DNA from: Mermis nigrescens
Taxonomy: Eukaryota > Nematoda > Enoplea > Mermithida > Mermithidae
Length of the DNA: 64,000 bases
NCBI GenBank assembly: GCA_036768485.1
Contig: JAVLUZ010000154.1
Span: forward strand, 511,308-575,307
Direction of reading: 5' to 3'
Both the position numbers and the translations under genes were made by a program. The notes under the pieces were generated by a model. The model saw nothing but the letters and a program-made list of their open reading frames with translations. It was not told the DNA's origin and searched no databases. Positions 5,329 through 60,618 of the stretch are shown here, piece after piece (within the stretch, counting starts at the first letter, position 1; each line of letters begins with the position of its first letter).

Positions 5329-5572
5329 TACACCTGGGCGTGGGGGTTTGGGGGGTATGCACCCCAGAAACCAAATACCCCCAGAAATCAAAATACCCCC
5401 CAAATTCGATTTTTGAAAAATTTTTTCGTTTTTTGCAATTTTGATGCCAATGGATAGTGCTTGATGAGAAACGTCGAAAAATGGTGTTTTTATCGCCATA
5501 CACCATTTTTGAAGACCATTTTTTGACCTTCAAAAAATCTTGCACCCCAAATTTTCTTGCTGCCCACGTATG
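5329..5572 (+). mobile_element. hAT-type MITE family A, inside the Harbinger-like element
   Basis: Full-length family A sequence from ACACCTGGGCGTGGGGG to GCTGCCCACGTATG. A third insertion level: MITE in Harbinger in retrotransposon. The target duplication is degraded. Confidence 0.85.
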
Positions 5573-5930
5573 GTGGTGTGGTGACTCTATTGAAAATTTT
5601 TTTCCAGCATTCAATAATACAAACACACACTTGAAAAATATTTGCAATCACTGACAATTTATTGCCACTGCAGTGTTCTTTTACAAATTTAAAATTTGAA
5701 TCAAAGAAACATACTTACACTAATATTTGTTTGTATTGAGCAAGTGACACCTAACTTACAACTTAGACATAATTTAGACGTCCTATGAGAAACACAGTTA
5801 AGACTTTTAGACGCACGTGTCTAACTTCCGTCTAACTTTGACACGTCTAAACTTCGACAAAATGGCGTCTAAATTTGACGCATCTAATTTTGACGCATCT
5901 AGATGTTCTAATGAGAAACCCACCCCAGGA

Positions 5931-6883: not shown

Positions 6884-6889
6884 AAGGTT

Positions 6890-7180
6890 AGTAGTACTCC
6901 TGGACCTCCTGGCTCTACAATGTTTAAGCATAGCACATGCTTAAGCATAGAGACTCCATGTGGCGCAAAGCGCCAAAGTTCGGGTCATACTACTACACAA
7001 TAAAGCACAAAAGTATAGGCGCGAAGCGCCGGACCTGGGCAGTACACTCCCTGAAGCAAAAGCGCGAAGCGCCGAATTCAGACCCTACGCGGGCGCAGGA
7101 TGTCAAATTTCTCCCTAGGTCACATGAGCCCATCAGGTACAGGGTGCCAATTTCAGTAACACCATCAGAATAAAGATAAA
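6890..7180 (+). repeat. Left terminal inverted repeat of the Polinton-like element
   Basis: About 291 bp, matched in reverse complement by 12941-13274. It contains three hairpin palindromes of the GGCGCGAAGCGCC type (6962, 7018 and about 7060), and ends around CATCAGAATAAAGATAA. Confidence 0.88.
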
Positions 7181-7391
7181 ACATCAAAGCTATGGTTTAA
7201 GCACAAAAAGAAGAGAGCTAAAATGGCTGAGAGTTCATTAAGTGTTCAAGTGTTTGGCCAAGTTATTAACATATCCATCACCTATTTAGGCACCACTGAA
7301 AGAAAGTATGTGAATAATTCATGTAAAATAAAAACACATTAATTAATTGATTAACTAATTAATTGGACACTACATGTACCTTAGAGACTGA

Positions 7392-8060
7392 TTAAATTCT
7401 GAGCATTTTAATCTGATCTGGATAGTCTAGCAGAGTGCTGCTAGACTCTTCAGCAGATGTGACAACTTCATTATTGTCTTCTTGTTTCATCTGCTCATCC
7501 TCAAATAGATCGGCATTTTTGCTAATCAATTGTTTAAACATGAATTTTTGACTGGCCCAAGCTGTCTCTTCAGCTTCCCTTTTGCCAAACTTTAATTCAT
7601 AATGGTAAAAATGATTAGCGCATTCTACTTCTTCCCTTAATTCGCTTTCATTTAGAGCATCTGAGAGTGATTCATAAAAACCATAGAAAGTATGGATTTT
7701 ATTAACAAAACTGATGTAAAATGGTTCTGTTTGAAGGTCTTGTATACTATTCGAAAAATTTTCAAAATCTGAAAGCACAACTTTTACGAAAAAGCGCCAA
7801 AATGGGTTAGTCCAACCAGTTTCAATTTCAGACTCATTTGAGCTGTCTTCAGACACTTCTGAAGAATTTTCATCTGTTATTACCTTCATTACTATCATCA
7901 ACTGACATTTGTTCAGACTCTGATGTATCATCCCTCATTTCTGATATCCCATCTTTGAAGTATTTGTGTCGTTTTAAGGTAAAATTATTCAGTAGTTTCT
8001 TATTGCAGATCTCAGATTTTATTCATGTTGTCAACTATTCAAGATGTGGCAGTTCTTAAA
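7392..8060 (-). pseudogene. Acidic ORF of unknown function in the Polinton-like element
   Basis: Minus-strand frame 7392-7931 is an acidic, Ser/Glu-rich protein (DENSSEVSEDSSNESEIETGW, then a FW/FF-rich helical part and a DLFEDEQMKQEDNNE tail). One frameshift near 7880 joins it upstream to EMRDDTSESEQMSVDDS (to about 7945) and a basic stretch KKLLNNFTLKRHKYF (about 8000). Further upstream, 8150-8060 encodes YCEECELLCQECDVNVDHMC, a C-x2-C-x4-C-x2-CD-x4-H pattern like a B-box zinc site, but stops intervene. I do not recognise the family. It lies just inside the left TIR and reads outward, opposite to the capsid and TBP genes. Confidence 0.45.
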
Positions 8061-8257
8061 TACACTTTATTGCACATGTGATCCACATTTACATCACATT
8101 CTTGACATAGAAGCTCACATTCTTCGCAATATTGGTCACTACAGTCACTTTATTCAATTCTAAGCCTAGCATGCGTTTTCTTCATATGCAAAACATTAAG
8201 CCTGGTTCTAGAGTAAAAATTATCGCTGACAAAGTGTGCCGATTTTTAATTGACAAT

Positions 8258-9020
8258 ATTCAGCAATCTCAACTTTTGTTGGTAATATCATCGATAATAA
8301 AACCTCATGCAGAAAGGTGATTTTCTGCCAATTCTGCTAGCTGGTCAGTTGTAAGCTGATGCAATTTTAAATCGGTGACTTTTATAAAACGCGCATAAGA
8401 TATGCCTTATTGAGATTTTTAGAGGAATGTGGCAATGTGATGGCTTTTGTGCAGAATGTGAGGATTTTGTGCACCTCACATTTTGAAGAAAACCTCACAT
8501 TCCAAATTGTGCGCCTCACATTCTGCACAAAAACCATCACATTGCCACATTCCTCTGAAAATCTCAATAAGGCATATCTTATGCGCGTTTTATAAAAGTC
8601 ACCCATTTGTAGTTGCATCAGCTTACAACTGACCAGCAATCTCAACTTTTGTCGGTAATATCATCGATAATCAAACCTCATTCAGAAAGGCGGTTTTCTG
8701 CCAATTCTGCTAGCGTCTGTATTGGGGATTGTTGGTTAGTTGTAAGCTGATGCAATTACAAGGCTTTTATAAAATGCGCATAAGATATGCCTAATTGAGC
8801 TTTTCAGAGGAATGTGGCGATGTGATGGCTTTTGTGCAGAATGTGAGGATTTTGAGCACCTCACATTTTGAAGAAAAACCTCACATCCCAAATTATGCAC
8901 CTCACATTCTGCACAAAGACCATCACATCGCCACATTCCTCTGAAAATCTCAATAAGGCATATATTTTTTATAAAAGTAGTAGTAGTTTTATAAAAGTAG
9001 TTTTATAAAAGTCACCTATT
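8258..9020. repeat. Tandem duplication of an 85-bp flank plus a palindromic MITE
   Basis: Two palindromic units (8346-8632 and about 8735-9020) run from GGTCAGTTGTAAGCTGATGCAA to its reverse complement, with inner arms GAGGAATGTGGC.ATGTGATGG.TTTTGTGCAGAATGTGAGG. Each is preceded by the same 85-bp segment (AGCAATCTCAACTTTTGT..ATTCTGCTAGC). The whole roughly 375-bp unit was therefore duplicated. It lies in the Polinton-like element and ends at the capsid fragment. Confidence 0.82.
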
Positions 9021-9027
9021 TGTAATT

Positions 9028-9324
9028 GAGCCAAATCTAGTAAGTGTGGGGTTTGAAGCTATGTATGTTTATGCCAACACTTTAGAACCCCAGATCTTAG
9101 GAGACGTTTCTGCAACTCTTTTGCATATTTTAATGGTTGAGGAATCTTACCCTAACGTAACTGATAAAATTTATGACATGCCCCACTATGTCCCGGTTTT
9201 AGTAAAAGACATTTCTAGCATAGAAATTAACATAATGGACGATTTCAATGCGTTGATTCCATTTTTCTTAGGGAAAGTGATTGTCAAGCTGCATTTTAGA
9301 AAGATTAAACTGTCATATTTTTAG
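9028..9324 (+). pseudogene. Polinton minor capsid (penton-like) protein, C-terminal fragment
   Basis: An open frame of about 98 codons ends with TAG at 9322-9324. It has LEPQILGD, HYVPVLVKDISSIEINI and IPFFLGKVIVKLHFRK. From memory of the family this matches the C-terminus of Polinton/adintovirus minor capsid proteins, often annotated in animal genomes as F54H12.2-like, where PQIVGD, HYVPV, a DDTG turn and GKVxVxLHFR are typical. In virions this protein forms the vertex. The upstream part is lost at the palindromic repeat that ends near 9020. The TBP-like start codon follows 46 bp after the stop. Family assignment rests on motif recall, not on a search. Confidence 0.62.
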
Positions 9325-9407
9325 ATATAAATAGTTGTGTGTGTCTATTTGAAATTCACCATTCTCAATCATGATTACATTTCAAAACATTGTTTCAACA
9401 GCTCGAG

Positions 9408-9672
9408 CACACCTGGGCGTGGGGGGTTTAGGGGGGTATGCACCCCCCAGAAAACCAAAATACCCCCAGAAATCAAAATACCCCCTCAGAATTCTATTTT
9501 TGAAAATTTTTTTCGTTTTTTTCGCAATTTTTTGATGCCAATGGATAGTGCTTGATGAGAAACGTCAAAAAACGGTGTTTTTATCGCCATACCACCATTT
9601 TTAAGGCCATTTTTTAATCTTCAAAGAAATCTTGCACCCCCCCCCCAGAATTTTTCTTGCTGCCCACGTATG
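9408..9672 (+). mobile_element. hAT-type MITE family A, in the TBP-like gene
   Basis: TIR CACACCTGGGC / GCCCACGTATG, flanked by AGCTCGAG at 9400-9407 and 9673-9680 (8 of 8). Confidence 0.93.
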
Positions 9673-10064
9673 AGCTCGAGTCTCTTCAAAACTTTTTAAA
9701 TTTGTATAAAATTAAAATGACTTGTGATGGGGTAGAATACAATCATAGAAGATTTAATGCTATGATAATAAGAATAAAAGACCCCAAAACAACGGCTCTG
9801 TTATTCAGTACTGGCAAACTTGTATGCATTGGTGCTAAAAGCGTCGAACAAAATAAAATTGCAAACAAAAAAATTTGCAAAATGTTGGAGAAAAGTGGAT
9901 ACTGAGCTAAAACTAACTGAACATAGAATTCACAATATTGTAGGGTCGGGAATTTTAGGCGCAAATTTAAATTTACTAGCCATAGCACAAACATACAAAA
10001 AATTTGATAAATACGAACAAGAATTATTCCCGGTTTGAAAATACGATTTCCAGATGGTCCACCC

Positions 10065-10321
10065 CATACGTGGGCAGCAAGAAAATTCTGGGGGTGCAAG
10101 ATTTTTTTGAAGGTCGAAAAATGGCCTTAAAAATGGTGGTCTGGTGATAAGAACACCATTTTTCGACGTTTCTCATCAAGCACTATCCATTGGCATAAAA
10201 AATTGCGAAAAAAACGAAAAAAATTTTCAAAAATTGAATTCTGGGGGTATTTTGATTTCTGGGGGGAGTATTTAGGTTTCTGGGGGTGCATCACCCCCAA
10301 ACCATCCCACGCCCAGGTGTG
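10065..10321 (-). mobile_element. hAT-type MITE family A, in the TBP-like gene
   Basis: CATACGTGGGC...GCCCAGGTGTG, flanked by GTCCACCC at 10057-10064 and 10322-10329 (8 of 8). Confidence 0.93.
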
Positions 10322-10377
10322 GTCCACCCTCTGCCCTTATTTTTACAACGGGAAAATTGTTATAACAGGCACAAGAA

Positions 10378-10756
10378 CATAGGTGGGCAGCACCGAAATT
10401 CTGGGGTGAGAAATTTCTGTGAGGGGGTGAAAAAATTTTTAAAGGTCAAAAATGGTCTTAAAAGTGGTCGTATGCATAGGTGGGCAGCACCAAAATTCTG
10501 GAGGGGGTGAAAAAATTTCTGGGGGGGGGGGGGGTGAAAAAATTTTTAAAGGTCAAAAATGGCCTTAAAAATGGTGGTATGGCGAAAAAAACACCATTTT
10601 TCGATGTTTCTCATCAAGCACTATCCAATGGCATCAAAAATTGCTAAAAAAGCAAAAAAAATTTTCTGGGGTGGGGTATTTTGATTTCTAGGGGGGGGGG
10701 TATTTCAACTTCTGGGGGGTGCTTACCCCCCCCCTAACCCCCTACGCCCATGTGTG
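10378..10756 (-). mobile_element. hAT-type MITE family A, composite, in the TBP-like gene
   Basis: CATAGGTGGGC...GCCCATGTGTG, flanked by CACAAGAA (10370-10377) and CACGAGAA (10757-10764), 7 of 8. The left end is repeated internally from about 10474, so the copy is partly duplicated. Confidence 0.85.
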
Positions 10757-10832
10757 CACGAGAAATGAAGCACAACTGAAACGATTTCAAAACCGCATAA
10801 TATGTTTGACTGATGCATTCAAAATAGCTTGA

Positions 10833-12228
10833 GCATAAGGTTATTGTTTATTCAAAACGTTGTGCAAACAGAAAGGTCAGCTATTGAACAATGTGCAATG
10901 CTCGGTACCTAAACATGTTACGGTCTGAGTCTTCCTCCTGGTATGGTTGGGGTACGTACTATGCTTGGGAGAGAGATTGCTATTAGGTTCGACGTCTAAA
11001 GGTTAAAATGTGGTAAGTACCGAGAATATTCCAACACACGTTTTACTCAAGACACAAAAAAGCTAACTCAAGAGATGACCGCCAACAAGCTAAAACAACG
11101 TACTTAAATACCAAGCAGGCGACGTGCCACCAGGCAACAAACGAAAATGCTATTTTAGGCAACAAACGAAATTCACTCAGATCACTTTTGTCGATTCCTC
11201 CACGTATTTCGCTTTTTGCCTCACATCTTTGACGGCTGCCTTGAGTCACGTATTTTGTTTTCCACCATCAAATGCACATCGACCCTAAGTGCACAATTCA
11301 TTAATGTTCGACGGCTTGCGCAGCTAATCGGCGTCATTGCTGTCATCAGTCCCTTGGCCATCCTGACAAACTGTATGCAGGATGCATAAAGCCTTGCATT
11401 CTTACAAAACAGAAAAATACTTACCCTTGCAGACAATCGTTCCTGGGTTTGTTGTTGTCCTTGATCTCCTTTGACATCTTCCTATTCCTGCCAATAGTAG
11501 GTGATAATTTAAATGATAAGAAAGCAGCGCTCATTCTGTTTGACTAGATGAAGCTCTCTCAGCCAGCTGCTTACACAGCTGCCCAGCCTGCAGGACGAGG
11601 ACCCGGAGCTTCAGCACAGGCCATTTTCTTTCATTTTTTTAGATTTTTTTAAATATTTTTTTCATTTTTTTCTTCTTTTAAATTTTTTCTTTTTTTTTCA
11701 ATTTTTTTCTTTTTTCTCTTTTCCTTTTTTCCAGTTAATTAGCATGCCTATAGACTACAACTGTCTATGCCGCTCTTGATACACTTTATTTGCGTATCAG
11801 CAATATTTCCCATTGATAGGGACCAAATAGTGTGGCATTCTGGCCGAATATTTTGCTACATTTCGACATACAAAGATGTTTCAAAATGTGCAAAAGCTTT
11901 AGCAAAATACCAGAAGCTGTGCTGTTTGCTTCTCCCTGTCAACTCGCGTTGTGTGTTGAATTGTGCAGCAGCCACTCTCCACTGACTCTTGTAGGAGTCA
12001 GTGAAGTGGTTCCAAAAAGAAATAGTGAGCCAATGAAGTTGGTAGTTGTCGTATGGAGATGACGAAATACAGGCCAAGTCGGAGCAAAAGCTGATAAATG
12101 TTGCTTGAGCAGAACACATTTTTGCAAAGGAAAATGAATGAATGCGTTTTGGGGGAGCAGTCAGGGATGCTTATACTTTTTTCAAAAGCAGCTGAAAATC
12201 TTTACACTAATGTGCTAAAAAGATTTCT
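10833..12228. other. Polinton-like element, right interior without recognisable gene
   Basis: No gene is recognised between the TBP-like gene and the tandem repeats. A minus-strand ATG at 11477 (MSKEIKDNNK) runs to a good GTAAGT donor at 11424, but no partner exon was found. 11630-11735 is a T-rich tract. The rest shows only short ORFs without familiar motifs. Confidence 0.4.
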
Positions 12229-12860
12229 ATATAATTTTTCTTTTGTATCTTTCTGAACAATGAAAAGTAACTTGAGTTGGACCTATTTTTGTAATGTTTT
12301 GCTCTTCTCTGAATAATGAAAAAGTAGCTTGAGTTGGATCTGTTTTTGTAATGTTTTGCTTTTCTCTGAATAATGAAAACTTAGTTTGAGTCGAAAGCTG
12401 CAGTTAAAAATAAATTTCTATAATATTTCTTCTTTTGTACTTTTCTGAATAATGAAAACTTAGCTTGAGTTGGACCTATTTTTGTAATATTTTGCTTTTC
12501 TCTGAATAATGGAAACCTAACTTGAGTCGACAGCTGCAGTTCAAAATAAATTTCTACAAAATTTTTCTTTTGTACCTTTCTGAACAGTGAATATGTAGCT
12601 AGAGTCAACAGCTGCAGTTTAAAATAAATTTCTACGATACATTTTTCTTTTGTGCCTTTCTGAATAATGAAAACTTAGCTTGAGTTGGACCTATTCTTGT
12701 AGTAAAGGGTCAATAGCTAGATGCCAGCAACCTTTTAAATTTCAATAACATTTTGCATGGAAACCTAGCTTGAGTCGACAGCTGCAGTTCAAAATAAATT
12801 TCTACAAAATTTTTCTCTTGTACCTTTCTGAACAGTGAAAACATAGCTAGAGTCAACAGG
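12229..12860. repeat. Tandem repeat array, unit about 60-125 bp
   Basis: Diverged units combine TTTCTGAATAATGAAAACTTAGCTTGAGTTGGACCT with CGACAGCTGCAGTTCAAAATAAATTTCTACAAAATTTTTC. They recur at about 12255, 12315, 12370, 12450, 12505, 12590, 12665 and 12760. The array lies just inside the right TIR of the Polinton-like element. Confidence 0.85.
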
Positions 12861-12940
12861 GCAAATAGTTTATTGCTCTAATAAAACTGTGTTATAGTAT
12901 GTGTGTATATGCCGCCTAGTGATTACACAGTTCAATGTTG

Positions 12941-13274
12941 TTATCTTTATTCTGATGGCCTTACTGAAATTGGGGCACACTGTACCAGATGGGCTCATAT
13001 GACCTAGGGAGAAATTTCGCGTTCTGCGCCCGCATAGGGCCCTAATTCGGTGCTATGCGCCAATGCTTTAGGGATAGCCCTCTCAAGTTTGGCATTTCGC
13101 GCTTTTGCTTCAGGGAGTATGCCGCCCGAGTTTGGTGCTTTGTGCCTATACTTCCGTGCTTTATTGTGTAGTATTATGACCCAAACTTCAGCGCTTAGCG
13201 CCTCATGGAGTCTCTATGCTTAAGCTTGTGCTATGCTTAAGCATTGTAGAACCAGAAGGTCCAGGAGTACTACT
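12941..13274 (-). repeat. Right terminal inverted repeat of the Polinton-like element
   Basis: Inverted partner of 6890-7180, with about 40 extra bp near 13045-13090. Shared blocks include the CTGATGG..TTACTGAAATTGG end, the GGGCTCATATGACCTAGGGAG block and the AGGAGTACTACT terminus. Confidence 0.88.
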
Positions 13275-13280
13275 AAGGTC

Positions 13281-16698: not shown

Positions 16699-17214
16699 GT
16701 CCAGACTCCGCACGCCCTAGTTTTATTCTGACCAGGATTTTTATTTGTGAAAAAAACCGCAGAGAATGTGTCGTTTCCAGCGTTTTTAAACTCAAACGTA
16801 TCGAAATTTCGGCACTTCGCACAATACGCTAATTTTTTTGACTATGTTTTGCTCAATTTATTCGCTTATTTCGATGATTTTCGAAATTGTTTTATGTTTC
16901 TATGTTCTAGAAATAAGGAGCATCATCTGGAAAGTCAGAAAAGTCGATTTTGACGCATAATCCTCCTTTTTGCGTCCAAAAAAGCACATTATTTTTTGGT
17001 TCCATCCACCCAGCCATCAGAATTTTAATGCTGCGCTTATCAAACCCAAGTACGGTTGAGGAGACATTGATGGGCAGCAGCCAAATTCTGGGGGTCCGAT
17101 AGAACCAAATTGCCAAAAAAGCCCCTAAAATTAAATTCTGCTGGGGATGTCACCTTGATTTTGAGGGAGGGGATCAAGATAACGCAGACCCCCTCTCCCA
17201 CGAGGGGTCGGATC

Positions 17215-17486
17215 CATATGTGGGCGGCATCAGAATTCTGGGGGTGCAAGATTTTTGATAGGTCAAAGAATGGCCTTAAAAATGGTGGTATGGCGAAAAA
17301 ACACCATTTTTCAACGTTTTTATCAAGCACTATCCATTGGAATCAGAAAATTGCGAGAAAAAAAAACAAAAAAAAATTTTCAAAAATTGAATTGTGGGGG
17401 AAGTACATATTTTGTTTCTAGAGGAGGGGGCGGGTATTTTTATTTCTCGGGGGTTGCATACCCCCAACCCCCCACGCACAGGTGTG
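17215..17486 (-). mobile_element. hAT-type MITE family A, in the EBAG9-like 3'UTR
   Basis: CATATGTGGGC...GCACAGGTGTG, flanked by GTCGGATC at 17207-17214 and 17487-17494 (8 of 8). Its duplication starts 24 nt past the EBAG9-like stop codon. Confidence 0.93.
17439..17444 (-). terminator. Candidate poly(A) signal of the EBAG9-like gene, inside a MITE
   Basis: TTTATT on the plus strand is AATAAA on the gene strand, 74 nt past the stop codon and within MITE copy 17215-17486. No host-derived AATAAA lies between the stop and the MITE. Confidence 0.4.
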
Positions 17487-17517
17487 GTCGGATCTCCCAC
17501 CTGTTTTTACATTCAAA

Positions 17518-28922: not shown

Positions 28923-31900
28923 TCATGCTCCCAAACGTTTCAGCGCATCGTCGATCTTAGAAAAGAGCAAAAATAATATGAATTCAGTTTAAATCGAAGT
29001 AATTTTATTATAAAAATTCTTATTCAATTAATTTCAATTAGAAAAAACTAAATCGTAAGAGTTCATTCGTTTACGGTGTTTGCAATGGATAGCGTATAGG
29101 AAAGCAGTTTAAACTACTATTACTTTACACCACTCGATAAATTAAAACGTTGCGTTTATAAAAATATTCCTTATTCCGACGTGTTGATCGAAGTTTTATA
29201 ATTAATTTTTAGCAGGCACGTAGCTGGCCGTCCAATTTTGGGAGACCAATACCAATTTTTGGGGGACTAAGCCCAAAAAGGCCAAAAATAGCACAAAATA
29301 ACCTTCAAAGTCCTATTTTTCCGATTTTTCTGAATTCTGGGAGGTCCGAACACCCCTCCCCCCGCGCCCCATTCCTCCCGAGAGATACGTGCCTGATTTT
29401 TAGATACCCATTAACAGCTTTACACTTTATTTTCGTGTTTTTTTATCAATTTTCATTTAATTATCTATCATTAAAGACAATAAAGGTTATTACTGGCACG
29501 ATTATCATCAGGTATGATAACGTAACGCGAGATAACAGATTATTAGGAAACAATGAAAATCGATAGATGATAAAATTCAAAAATTTGAGCAACTTTAGTC
29601 GTCTTTTTAATACGAACTTTTTGGCGGAATTTAAGGCGAAATATTAACTTTACAACACGATCGTGTTTTGCAGTCTTCGGCATTCTGAATCGAGCTTGAA
29701 CAACCCAAATTTCTGGATGAACTTGGATCCCTGTCGAAATGAATTTCGATTATTTTTGTCACAAAAATTATTCACGTTGCAGAGAAATGTAAGGGAATTA
29801 GATTTGACATCAATTTTGAACAAAAAAAATCGAATTTTCTGCAAATTTTATTCAGAAAATGCTGATATTTTTGATTGAATTATGGTTTACACCAGTGTTT
29901 TTTGTACAAGGCCCGTTTGCACATGTATGGTCCCCAAAAGTCTTTGTACATTTTGTACATGCAAATTTTTGTGTACTATAATATAGTACGGTAGCGATTT
30001 TAGTGTGGTAAAACAGGGTTTTCGATCTTTGGTAGTGTATTTTAGCTAATTTCTGGGTTTCTGACGCCAAAAATTACTAAAAATGTCTCAAAACGGCGCT
30101 AAGCGCCGAAAAATTAGACATATTTCCATTCTAAATGCAAATTTTGCCATTTTAAAGATACGTAAGACGAAGAATTACTCGCTTCGGCGCGAAGCGCCAA
30201 AAATTTTCGGCGAATTTCACACCTTTTTACAGTTTTTGTCTTTCCAAAAATATTTGTACATTTTGTACACTTAAATTTTTGAGTACTATGATGTGAATAC
30301 AGTAGCGAGTTTAGTGTGGTAAAAACAGAGTTGTTCGACTTTTGGTAGTGTATTTTATCTAATTTCTGGGTCTCTAAGGGCACAAATCACCAAGAATCGC
30401 CTTAAAACGGCGCGAAGCTCCGAAAAATTTGGCATTTTTCCGTTTGAAATGCAATTTCTGCCTTTATAAAGATTTTTGCGAATTCCAGACCTTATTTGTA
30501 ATTTTTGTCGTCCCAAAAATCTTTGTATTTACATGTACAAAGACGGTCCCAAAAAGTATTTGTACATCGGAAAAATCTTTGCCGAATACAAAAAAGTGGT
30601 TTACACACTTCTTATTTTTCCACATTTTAATTAAAACTCTGAACGAAGATAAGCTCGCTTTATCACCAAACTTCGTGATACGTACATGTAACAGCACAAA
30701 ATTGCGTAAACGGAGTTTCGGGCCATTTTCAGGGGGGGGGGTGGTGATAACCTTATGCTTTGGCCAAAAATGGCAAAAACCGCACCTAAAATGGCCAAAA
30801 ACGCAAGTTCTCGCCAAAAAAACACGAAGGGGTCAGAATTTTCTGACTGTAGGGGACGGAGGAACGACCAACTGGGGGGGCCGTTTCCCACTCACCCTCA
30901 AAGATGTTCGTCGTGACAGACACAGCATTATTTATTTATAAATTTCCTAAAATATTATTTATTTATTGTTTACAATAATATAAGTCGTTTACACCAAGCT
31001 TCAGATAATCCGGCTCGTCCATCATCAGCAACAAGGCGACGGCTTCAGTTTCCAACAAAATGTCCGTGATTTCATTGGCCAATCCGGCGTTGTAATATTG
31101 AACCAATGGGAAAAGCAGATCCCGTATTACTTGCGCTCTCTGTTGCCCGCTGAGACCACTGGTCAAAAGCCAAACCAGCGGATTTTGCCCCTGAATCAAG
31201 TTGACCGAAGGCGGAGTCGCCTGAGACTGCTGTCCGGAAAAATTTAGTGTAAAGCAGGTTCCCGGAGTCTGGAGTTCAGGGAGAGGAGGGGAAATCCCGA
31301 AGTTCGGGTAAGTAAATTTAGGGTTGGAGCCATAAATGTGACGGCTCAAACTTTGGATGGAAAGTCGCCAAGCACGTATCTTTGGGGGAATGGGGAATTC
31401 GGAACCCCCCCCCAATTCAGAAAAATCGGAAAAATAGGACTTTTTAAACGTTATTTTGTGCTATTTTTGGCCTTTTTGGGCTTAGTCCCCCCTAAAATTG
31501 GTGTTGGTCCCCCCTAAAATCAGACGGCCAGCTACGTGCCTGGGGGTCGCGGCCATTTCTAGCGTGGGCGTGGGGGGGGAATGACCTGAAATTACTGGCC
31601 AAAAACGGCCAAAAACCACCTGATTACCAGAAGACCCAATTTTTTCCAAAAATCAGAGGGAGGGGGGGTCAAAAATTTATTAGCTTTGGGGGAATGGGGG
31701 ACAAAAAATTCAGGTTGCTGATCCCCCCTTTGCACGTATGTCGAGCCGTTTTCGCAAGTCAAATATGAAGAATGATTAACAAGTCCGTTAAGAAATGTTT
31801 TAATGTAGAAGTCTATATTTTTTTAGTACTTTTTATCCAATTCGTACCCCTTTACGTCACTTTTGTCAGTTGAAAAAAGTATAAGAATTCATCGAAAACT

Positions 31901-34900: not shown

Positions 34901-37900
34901 TTTTGCATTCGGCAAAGATTTTTCCCGATGTGCAAAGACTTTTCGGAACCGTCTTTGTACATGTACAAAGATTTTCGGGAAGACAAAAATTGCAAAAAAC
35001 GTCTAAAATTCGCAAAAATTTTCGGAATGAGTAATTGTGCGTCAAATTTTTCGGCGCTTCACGCCGTTTTAAGACGATTCTACGTGATTTTGCCCTTAGA
35101 GACCCGAAAATTAGCTAAAATACATTACCAAAAGTCGAACAACTCTGTTTTTACCACACTAAAATCGCTACTGTACCATATTATAGTACCCAAAATTTGT
35201 GTATACAAATTGTACGACTTTTGAGGACCATCTTTGTACATCTACAAACGGACCTTGTACTAAAAAAAGACTGTATACAACATATAATTCTATTTGTTCC
35301 ATCAGACCATACATAATCTTGGGCCGGTTTGGGACCCCGAATTCGCGATTTTTCGAAAATCCCCAAAAATCGATGAGAAAACAGTTATAAATCAGTTTGG
35401 CAATTTTCTCTTTTATTTGCCATTAGAAAGCTATATAATTGCGTTTTAGGCAGTATTAAGACAATTTTGGCGCTCCGCGCTAATTCAGCGTTTTGAACTA
35501 TTCTCTGTCGTTAAAGACGCGTAAACTCTGCATGAAAACGCTAGAAATTCCAGATGTTCCTATGCTATGCGTCCTGTTGATAAGTTGTCGCAATTTTAAT
35601 TGTAATGCACAAGTTGAATTTATTTAAATTAAATTGAATTAAATTAAACCAAATTGAATTCATAAATTTATTTGCCATAATGCACAATTACATGTGTATT
35701 TAAATATAAAATATAACATAGAATGTATACTGTACTATATTGTTCTGTAATACCATTTAGGTACTGCATACAAAATGTACAAAGACTGTCGGGTAACCTC
35801 TTTGTACCTCTTTGTACGTGTACAAACGAACCTTGTACAAAATAGAAAAAACACTGCTTGCCGCTGATATTAGAATTTTAATTCTCGGAAAAATTAAATA
35901 GCATTGAAATTTTGAATTAAAGGCCTAAAATTATCAATAAATTTAATTTCCAAACGGGCAGATTGAATTCTGGGGTCTAAATGGCGCAAAAGTAACAAAG
36001 TCACAACGGAAATGCTTAAAATTCAAGCAGAGGCATTCTTGGAGGGGGGTCCAAACCATACGTGGGCAGCTAGAAAATTCTGAAGGGAGGGGTGCAAGAT
36101 TTTTTGAAGGTCAAAAAATGGCCTTAAAAATGGTGGTGTGGCGAAAAAAACACAATTTTTCGACGTTTCTCATCAAGCACTATCCATTGGCATCAAAAAA
36201 TTGCGATAAAAACGAAAAAAAATTTTTAAAAATTGAATTCTGAGGGGGTTATTTTGATTTCTGGGGGGGTATTTTGGTTTCTGGGGGGTGCATACCCCCC
36301 GAACCCCCCCCACGCCCAGGTGTGGTCCAAACCCCTCTCACATGCCCATATGTAATTATTACTAATCTAACAATAACCTGAAAACTCGCAGGCATCGTTT
36401 GTTGATAAAGAATTTTTCACAGAACTAAAACAATGAAATTCATTTTAGGGAGCCATACAGACTTTCTATTACTTTCAAATAATATTGGCTTAGGTACGTC
36501 TTTGCTTATACACACAGGTGTTAATCTTCTAATTGATAAATATAGAGCCAAACATGCCCGTATCCAGGATTTCATTTCGGGGGAGGGTAAGGGGAGCCGA
36601 AAATTTTGAGGTCAAAATCTCGAGAACCATTAAAAAATGGGCAAAAATAAAGGCATTTTTAAGCATATCTCAACGAGCTCTATGCAATGGTGAAAAAAAA
36701 TTTCAAGAAACAATTTTTAAAATTTTTCTTTTTATTCTGTACTCATATTACACAAATCTATCGTTTGAACAATCTACACAAGTGATTTCTCATCAATTAA
36801 TTGACGAATAATTTCCAAACTTCTGTCTTTGTAATTAATCTTCGTCATTTACAAAGAAAAACAATACAGAAAATGAATAATTGGCCCGCAGCGCCGAAAA
36901 ATTTTGACATGTTCTACATGTCTAACTCACACTTGAGCGGTTTTGGGTGGGCTAGAAGACAAAAACTATACATAAACAATAAATCCAGCGCGGAACGCCA
37001 AAAAATTTTGAGTTTACCAACTCAAAAGTACGCTGGAAAACCCGTTTCGACGGTGTTTTAGACTCATTTTAGGATTGCTAAAAATCACTTTGTTAATTTT
37101 CTCTTTTATTTGCTACTGTATCATATTACAGTACCCAAAATTTGCCAATATATGCCAATGTGCAAAGTTAGACGAATTCCCTGAAAGGCAAGCATAAAAA
37201 ACAAATTTGATCATTTTTACCTTACATGGGCGACTACCTAATTCTGAGGGCTGGATGGAGCAAAAGTCCATAGAGTCATCACAAAAATACAAAAAATTCT
37301 ACCTTGGGGGACTATTAAAATCTGCAGGGGTATTTTGAAATTCTAGTGGTCTCAATCCCTCCTACATGTCCACATGGCAAATATCCTTAAGTTCACAGCC
37401 TTTGTTTGTTGATTGAGTTCTTTTTGTTGAAATGAAACCATAAAGATCAATTCCAGAGAGCCATACAGACTGGTCATGAATAGTTTAATGCTCCATCGGG
37501 AGAAATAAAATAGAAAAATATTTAAAACGTGCAATGTCGGAAGAAAAATATTATAAAAATGAAATCGCAAAATATCTAATTATTTTATTGACCCTTTTAT
37601 AGATTTGAAATCAGGCAAGAACATTTATTCTCATAGAAGAGCGTGAAAATGAATCGCCTTAGTAAAAACTCCTCCGACAACAAGGTTCTATCCCTCCAGA
37701 GTAACATTAGTTACCCTAAGTCCTCCTTAAGTGCTCATATGAACATTTCAGAATGATAGCGTTGATTCTTTTATTATGAAACAAAATTTCCTAATATTTA
37801 TGTATCACATTTTTTTATTTGTGTTTTTTGACTTGCTCGTAGTTCAAGCATTCCAAAATATTTCCTTGAAATTTTTAGCTTACTCGGTTCGTCGACGAAT

Positions 37901-55946: not shown

Positions 55947-60618
<4,672 letters not shown>

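Follow-up and report, generated by a model that had tools for sequence, protein, structure and literature searches.

A TATA-binding-protein gene in Polintons of the nematode Mermis nigrescens

Polintons, or Mavericks, are some 15-20 kb in size and are defined by long terminal inverted repeats (TIRs), 5'-AG...CT-3' ends and a 6-bp target-site duplication (TSD). Their genes, as given by Krupovic et al. 2014 (PMC4028283), encode PolB, an RVE integrase, an A32-like ATPase, an adenovirus-like protease, a DJR MCP and the penton PX. Genes for the TATA-binding protein (TBP) have been recorded from large DNA viruses (PMC11410667, PMC7221094 and PMC10132985). The seven families named in PMC11410667 are without exception families of large dsDNA viruses; a TBP is present in 59% of mirusvirus genomes (PMC10132985) and sporadically in mirusvirus-like elements of Cymbomonas (PMC10675990). 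Mirusviruses have HK97-fold capsids and large genomes, whereas the elements described below have Polinton capsid genes. We found no report of a TBP in Polintons in the open-access literature searched; 'TATA' is absent from the main text of PMC4028283, and both 'TATA' and 'TBP' are absent from the main texts of PMC4642659, PMC11071308 and PMC10120064. The full-length relatives of the locus analyzed here resemble the elements outlined in PMC4028283 in gene content, long TIRs, 6-bp TSDs and a penton near the MCP; unlike the described elements, they carry a TBP gene at fixed positions.

A shortened Polinton with a broken TBP gene

The window, a 64,000-nucleotide stretch of contig JAVLUZ010000154.1 of Mermis nigrescens, contains an element of 6,385 bp (6890-13274) that starts with AGTAGTACTCC at 6890 and ends with GGAGTACTACT at 13274 (Table 1). 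These bounds, with TIRs of about 300 bp, AG...CT ends and the duplication AAGGTT/AAGGTC, had been proposed in a sequence-only reading and proved exact to the base. The ends are those of a Polinton, with a TSD that agrees at five of six bases. The TIRs (295 and 340 nt) align with gaps and 12.2% substitutions, and their ungapped arms are complementary at 87%, 82% and 94%; the left TIR has 43 matches across the genome. Perfect 6-bp TSDs flank the relatives L025 (CAAATG) and L029 (ATTGAA), and no TSD was recognized for L026, L027 and L028. Because PolB, integrase, ATPase, MCP and protease were all not found between the TIRs, the window element is a non-autonomous Polinton derivative, shortened and decayed. 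The acidic reading frame O180 has no Pfam match and a median dN/dS of 0.58 (71 pairs).

Table 1. Features of the element and its flanks in the window
Feature	Position	Strand	Basis or remark
Left TSD, AAGGTT	6884-6889		5/6 bases equal to right copy AAGGTC
Left TIR	6890-7184	+	TIR alignment
O180, acidic ORF of 180 codons	7395-7934	-	conserved near TIR in related copies
Nested inverted-repeat (MITE-like) insertions	8340-9028		inverted-repeat search
Penton (PX), C-terminal ~90 residues, N-terminal part missing	9049-9324	+	protein matches, homologue fold
TATAAATAG box	9326-9334	+	45 nt upstream of TBP start codon
TBP piece 1 (MITFQNIVSTA...)	9371-9407	+	compared with relatives
MITE 1 within TBP gene	9408-9672		TSD AGCTCGAG at 9400-9407 and 9673-9680
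TBP, remainder of repeat 1 and beginning of repeat 2	9673-10063	+	PF00352/PDB matches; frameshift near 9880
MITE 2 within TBP gene	10064-10320		TSD GGTCCACC
TBP repeat 2 piece (NGKIVITGTR)	10321-10376	+	translation
MITE 3 within TBP gene	10377-10755		TSD GCACAAGA/GCACGAGA
TBP C-terminal piece and stop codon	10756-10832	+	translation, compared with L048 TBP
Right TIR	12935-13274	-	TIR alignment
Right TSD, AAGGTC	13275-13280		one base off left copy

The penton (PX) that helps to define a Polinton is represented in the window by a C-terminal remnant only. Its ORF (9001-9324) is similar to 14 proteins, with E values between 2e-18 and 6.5e-10; one of the matched proteins, P0002, has a predicted fold similar to adomavirus LO5, the mavirus minor capsid protein and the adenovirus penton. 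The TBP gene starts 46 bp past the penton stop on the same strand. Its piece at 9618-9905 matches PF00352 with E 1.1e-19 and 70.4 bits (cut-off 22.9), and the piece at 9778-10038 scores 22.4 bits, slightly below that cut-off, and matches TBPs in the PDB with E 5.9e-7 and weaker. The last piece (10758-10832) encodes TRNEAQLKRFQNRIICLTDAFKIA followed by the stop, and the last 23 residues are one residue off the intact relative L048. Both TBP repeats are present, and the penton and TBP matches are not due to chance; the profile and protein matches confirm the arrangement that the sequence-only reading had described. The gene itself is a pseudogene, a dead copy with a frameshift and three MITE insertions, which have 8-bp TSDs, one of them matching at 7/8. 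Further copies of the MITE 1 family occur in the window. Searches for proteins similar to the window TBP piece found nothing, and scans of viral contigs gave no accepted relative, the lone match (L001) being a contig with phage-like ORFs.

TBP as a regular gene of related Polintons

Copies without the TBP had earlier been named as a sign of a later host insertion. Among the ten elements examined that have both TIRs (the window element, L024-L029, L036, L038 and L039), eight carry the gene and two do not. The order O180 (minus strand), penton (plus) and TBP (plus) is common to the window element, L024, L025 and L027-L030. The 524-Mb genome has at least 266 TBP loci besides the host gene, a count that includes segmental or haplotype duplicates. 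Within the lists of matches, 107 of these 266 loci have a listed penton or MCP no more than 8 kb away, whereas controls shifted by +/-100 kb give 6 and 4; the other 159 have no listed capsid gene nearby. One of the TBP lists kept 148 of 150 rows (137 distinct) after removal of two host-TBP rows. From one list of 150 penton rows, 19 belonging to other lineages (42-43% identity) were removed, leaving 131 rows or 127 loci of the L044 lineage, and seven rows of another list of 150 penton rows were dropped as second halves of listed pentons. A TBP follows within 1 kb on the same strand at 88 of the 127 listed L044-lineage pentons, with 64-127 bp between match edges in 79 of the 88 pairs; 39 have no listed TBP downstream. 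Pentons of other lineages among the matches listed have no TBP within 1 kb downstream. Most listed MCPs (70 of 87) are without a listed TBP within 8 kb, and among the TBP loci near a listed MCP ten lie at 1,312-1,348 bp and seven at 2,280-2,285 bp from it.

The gene occurs in two arrangements. In one lineage it stands behind the penton, as in L044 (INT(part)-ATP-MCP-PRO-PEN-TBP on one strand, the TBP ATG 54 bp past the penton stop); in a second (L045 and L046) it is placed between the integrase and the ATPase and is divergent from the latter. L005 shares the divergent TBP-ATPase pair, but with the integrase on the opposite side, and in L004 the TBP is located past the protease. A TBP is likewise present in Polintons of two contigs that come from other samples, and is absent from L068, a Polinton stretch of 8.5 kb that runs from INT to PEN. 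Integrase, ATPase, MCP, protease and penton are all found in L045 and in L044, where the integrase lies partly within the stretch; L046 has the first four, the penton being absent from the stretch examined. The Polinton genes of L004 were identified with PF00665, PF04665, PF00770 and blastp, and those of L005 with blastp against L004 and L003. PolB is present in L004 (PF03175) and as small pieces in L005, and was not found within the examined stretches of L044-L046. The two PF00352 repeats are intact in the TBPs of L004 and L005. This ordinary Polinton gene set leads us to reject the earlier suggestion of a virus lineage intermediate between Polintons and larger DNA viruses. At its fixed positions the TBP gene has been passed down together with the elements; it belongs to the normal gene content of many related Polintons and is not a stray insertion. 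Its recurrence in related elements and in Polintons from other samples suggests that these small virus-like elements supply a promoter-recognition factor of their own. Of the same proposal made earlier for the window element, the gene proved real and general rather than one odd copy; its function is what we infer.

Role and origin of the element TBP

Comparisons of residues and identity, dN/dS and the tree excluded L058 (masked N) and shorter ORFs. The residue table has 24 rows for 23 distinct intact TBPs, as L012 and L047 are one gene in two rows, in the tree likewise. The phenylalanines that we take to intercalate into DNA are kept almost throughout (F99 in 23, F116 in 23, F190 in 22 and F207 in 21), and the TFIIB contacts E186 and E188 are each kept in 21 of 23. 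R137, K138 and K145 are presumably N-lobe positions; R137 is kept in two TBPs (Glu in 14) and K145 in seven. Judged by these residues, the element TBPs keep the intercalating Phe and the TFIIB-contacting Glu and lose N-lobe residues. The large dsDNA virus TBPs are similar in having conserved DNA-contacting Phe and lost N-lobe regulatory signatures (PMC7221094, PMC11410667). However, the TFIIB contact C.L3.2 is reported to be about 40% conserved in viral TBPs and almost all such genomes to encode a viral TFIIB (PMC7221094), whereas the equivalent Glu is kept in 21/23 element TBPs; no TFIIB domain was detected among the element ORFs run against Pfam, which were part of all ORFs. Of 210 TBP pairs 40 were usable, and in every one of these dN/dS is below 1, with a median of 0.20; the values come from intact ORFs only, with L004 and L005 left out, and are biased downward; with this bias, the element TBP looks constrained.

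Of 51 element positions, five of them match edges rather than start codons, 29 have a TATAWA no more than 90 nt upstream, compared with 6.0 (SD 2.2) for random stretches. The best reading of the gene is a Polinton-encoded basal factor that would use host TFIIB to direct host Pol II to the promoters of the element. Made upon element expression, the TBP would bind and bend the TATA boxes that lie about 30-55 nt upstream of the element's genes, and would recruit host TFIIB and with it host RNA polymerase II; through its altered N-lobe it may respond less to host TBP regulators (the TFIIA/NC2/Mot1 side), and element genes would be transcribed preferentially. We give a probability of roughly 0.76 to the reading that the window element is a decayed member of a Polinton lineage with a regular TBP gene that probably acts in this way. 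The herpesvirus TBP mimics of the KSHV ORF24 type are comparable in that the virus itself supplies the factor that recognizes TATA at viral promoters; the ORF24-type protein is a mimic, not a plain PF00352 TBP.

A chance insertion of a host TBP gene or retrocopy into this single element is very improbable. The intact element copies are intronless and the host gene has separate exons, as a retrocopy would lead one to expect, but the TBP has the same position across many insertions and is divergent from the host protein, and we reject a later host insertion for these reasons. Element TBPs are 23-48% identical to the host exons; the repeat-1 piece in the window shares 32/69 residues with host TBP, whereas human TBP shares 73/79. 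In the tree the window TBP falls within a clade of element TBPs; the sequence-only reading had named tight nesting with the host gene as the refuting outcome. A tree that keeps the 25 element rows together, as one ancient capture would, is 6.7 log units worse, a cost at which it is not rejected (AU p 0.198). The union of groups B and C carries a long-branch warning, and the branches of L004 and L005 are long.

The TBP might also be a decoy or inhibitor that occupies TATA boxes or sequesters TFIIB and so represses host or rival-virus transcription instead of transcribing the element. The altered basic residues of the N-lobe would suit such a role, and L068 has TATA boxes though it lacks a TBP; host TBP must therefore serve some elements, and the boxes are no proof that the element TBP is used. 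However, the abundance of TATA boxes at element genes and the retained TFIIB contacts, which one would expect in initiation but not in a pure DNA decoy (a TFIIB sponge would keep them too), make this reading improbable. Still less likely is a role as a DNA-bending architectural factor in replication or integration: short derivatives retain a TBP piece despite the loss of other core genes, but their TBPs are mostly broken, and retention is thus no sign of use.

The elements that carry this gene for a basal transcription factor are far smaller than the large DNA viruses and are otherwise expected to depend on host transcription factors, and their proteins are natural TBP variants that keep TFIIB contacts and lose N-lobe regulatory residues. 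Polinton escape from host transcription control and a Polinton source of the TBPs of larger viruses become open to test. A wider version, which we offer tentatively and consider rather doubtful, is that these Polintons may have an element-specific promoter system, in which a captured, fast-evolving core TBP is tuned to the TATA variant of each lineage (TATAWAAGA for one, TATAAATAC for a second), works with TFIIB and Pol II of the host and is freed from host TBP regulators; the TBP, which occurs in Polintons of several sources, could then have belonged to the group for a long time and be the source of the TBPs of larger DNA viruses. In the box-type comparison, to which three of the five match edges contribute boxes, AGA-type boxes make up 6/6 in L044, 0/5 in L045, 0/7 in L046 and 0/7 in L068 (Fisher p 0.002 for L044 against L045 and 0.0006 against L046). 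The box TATAAATAC is found at 5/7 in L046 (one of the five being TATATATAC) versus 1/7 in L068, a difference that is not significant (p 0.10). L004 and L005 have few TATA boxes.

The TBP gene and the remnant that led to it

The TBP-bearing Polinton that the sequence-only reading described is real; its copy in the window is dead, yet it leads to a TBP gene in many related elements. The sequences point to a TBP gene that is widespread and constrained in Polintons, with copy numbers inflated by duplicates, and the dead copy serves as a pointer to it. No report of a TBP in Polintons was found in the open-access literature searched, a negative limited to that literature; the available text of other papers places TBPs in mirusvirus-like elements (PMC10675990), mirusviruses (PMC10132985) and a megavirus (PMC11464507).

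The boundaries proposed for the element are exact, and its termini, TIRs and 6-bp duplication are confirmed (see table). The penton remnant and the TBP gene 46 bp beyond it also held up: the former comprises the last ~90 residues, and pieces of the latter represent both TBP repeats and the C-terminus. The TBP gene starts at ATG 9371, lacks an N-terminal extension, and is disrupted by a frameshift and three MITEs with 8-bp target-site duplications (one 7/8). The interior also holds inverted-repeat insertions. There is no second copy of the element within the window, whereas the family of the three MITEs that disrupt the TBP gene, whose ends are G-rich/C-rich (CCCCCAGAAATCAAAATACCCCC), recurs there in more than ten copies. 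The acidic O180 frame is open while penton and TBP are both broken, and is found in most of the short related copies examined. The ferritin-domain and MLLE-domain stretches of the window are probably host exons.

Coordinates of features in the window and in other stretches (L) and contigs (C) of its genome (G000)
Feature	Location	Strand	Details
Polinton-like element	6890-13274		termini AGTAGTACT/AGTACTACT
TIRs	window element ends		~295 nt and ~340 nt
Target-site duplication	flanks window element		6 bp, AAGGTT/AAGGTC
O180	7395-7934	minus	180 codons, inside window element
MITE family, examples	36048-36338, 5330-5578, 17214-17490
Repeats	12230-12870		57/79-nt spacing, adjoining right TIR
Ferritin-domain coding stretch	57539-57925	minus	PF00210
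MLLE-domain coding stretch	30963-31460	minus	PF00658
Conserved small Polinton ORF	L044:666-1037, L046:1637-1978, L068:1862-2218, L012:2084-2410		[RK]PYGRSI[RK]PPI...C[YF][YF]CQ; in L012 beside third TBP type
TBP pairs	C68:2305717, C68:2755073, C77:1365609, C161:99076, C194:3279300		exactly 34,545 bp apart
Three TBP loci	G000:C61:48392998-48464045		repeated 53.2 kb further along
Three TBP matches	G000:C51:3876189, 3884571, 3892956		~8.38 kb apart, each with one internal TAG and one TAA

Fourteen proteins, the longest of 424 aa, match the penton remnant (E 2e-18 to 6.5e-10), and the motifs PHYVP and LHFR are invariant among them. The AlphaFold model of one homologue, P0002 (mean pLDDT 80.8), was compared against BFVD and matches adomavirus LO5, the mavirus minor capsid protein, a MELD virus 'putative penton' and an adenovirus penton. 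The Polinton penton is protein PX in the available text of PMC4028283.

TBP loci and their capsid neighbours

Besides the host gene, whose two exons are identical to human TBP at 73/79 and 67/83 residues and so suggest an animal host, the 524 Mb and 860 contigs searched contain at least 266 distinct listed TBP loci, a number that counts the window's own and is inflated by duplicates; they are spread over 125 contigs. The 34,545-bp pairs, found in five places, reflect either duplication of a long segment or haplotypes left uncollapsed, the stretches L038 and L039 look like a single insertion on two contigs, the repetition on C61 suggests segmental duplication, and the C51 matches form a tandem array of an element.

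TBP was found by tblastn in 10 of the 20 stretches fetched around TIR matches. Sibling copies lacking the gene were to mark it, according to the sequence-only reading, as a later host insertion; two such copies exist (L026, L036) among ten examined elements with both TIRs. Beyond these ten, C748 has one more pair of TIRs, separated by 24 kb. Because the other eight of the ten carry the TBP, and gene order and strand are identical between the window element and six other elements, we conclude that the TBP came with the element family.

Full-length carriers show two fixed arrangements. L044 encodes on a single strand part of an integrase, ATPase, minor protein, MCP, protease, penton and, 54 bp later, TBP. 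In L045 and L046 the TBP separates the integrase from the ATPase and is divergent from the latter; L005, a contig from another sample, has the same divergent pair with the integrase on the opposite side. A third TBP type (L012/L047, one gene) is followed by a small ORF common to L044, L046 and L068, and no capsid gene was seen within 4 kb of this TBP.

Judged by coordinates, at least 88 of the 127 listed L044-lineage penton loci are followed on the same strand by a TBP no more than 1 kb away, with 64-127 bp between match edges in 79 of the 88; the listed pentons of other lineages have no TBP in that interval. Of the 266 TBP loci listed, 107 have a listed penton or MCP no more than 8 kb away, versus 6 and 4 in controls shifted by +/-100 kb. 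Near listed MCPs alone the figure is 17/266 (0.75 expected), and the TBP-MCP distances fall into two fixed spacings, 1,312-1,348 bp (n=10) and 2,280-2,285 bp (n=7). The TBP is common but not universal among Polintons here, because no listed TBP comes within 8 kb of 70 of the 87 MCP genes listed and scored (from 2,322 first-look candidates), and the stretch around one of these 70, L068, has none across 8.5 kb.

Carriers in other samples and relationships

GTDB contigs, scanned once with the penton alignment, yielded four (L002-L005) that are filed under bacterial MAGs and are probably eukaryotic or viral contaminants. Two of the four, L004 (13.4 kb) and L005 (11.6 kb), carry an intact two-repeat TBP (PF00352, E 8.9e-37 and 1.9e-45, respectively); both are Polintons that also encode integrase, ATPase, penton, MCP and protease. 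No TBP was detected in L003 (penton, MCP, protease) or L002 (penton plus part of the gene that follows).

In a tree without giant-virus TBPs, the element TBPs split into groups A, B and C, and the window piece groups inside the L044-lineage TBPs. The L005 TBP is placed weakly with cellular TBPs and that of L004 weakly with group A; the AU test does not reject a single clade uniting the 25 element rows (p 0.198).

Constraint on the TBP and promoter boxes

The element TBPs are 32-46% and 23-48% identical to the first and second host exon. Among 21 distinct intact genes (210 pairs), dN/dS is below 1 in all 40 usable pairs (dS 0.05 to 1.5), with a median of 0.20 that the selection of intact ORFs biases downwards. 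Across 23 different intact TBPs from the elements, the intercalating phenylalanines F99, F116, F190 and F207 are kept in 23, 23, 22 and 21 (2 Tyr), and the N-lobe residues R137, K138 and K145 in 2, 16 and 7.

Both TFIIB-contact glutamates, E284/E286 of human TBP (PMC7221094, available text), are retained in 21/23, whereas the same text gives ~40% conservation of the first in viral TBPs and reports a viral TFIIB in almost all TBP-bearing viral genomes. Given this difference, the element TBPs look suited to host TFIIB; no TFIIB domain was found among those element ORFs given to Pfam.

Of 51 positions in L004, L005, L044-L046 and the window (five of the 51 not start codons), 29 have TATAWA in the 90 nt upstream, versus 6.0 (SD 2.2) in random stretches of the same loci, where 0/500 draws were as high. 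At 20 of these 29, a box is located 30-55 nt ahead of the position. Boxes are sparse in L005 (2/9 positions) and L004 (4/12). All six L044 positions with such a box have TATAWAAGA, L045 and L046 mostly TATAAATAC, and the TBP-less L068 TATAAATAT/A; these family-specific boxes, from few elements, are suggestive of TBP-promoter co-evolution.
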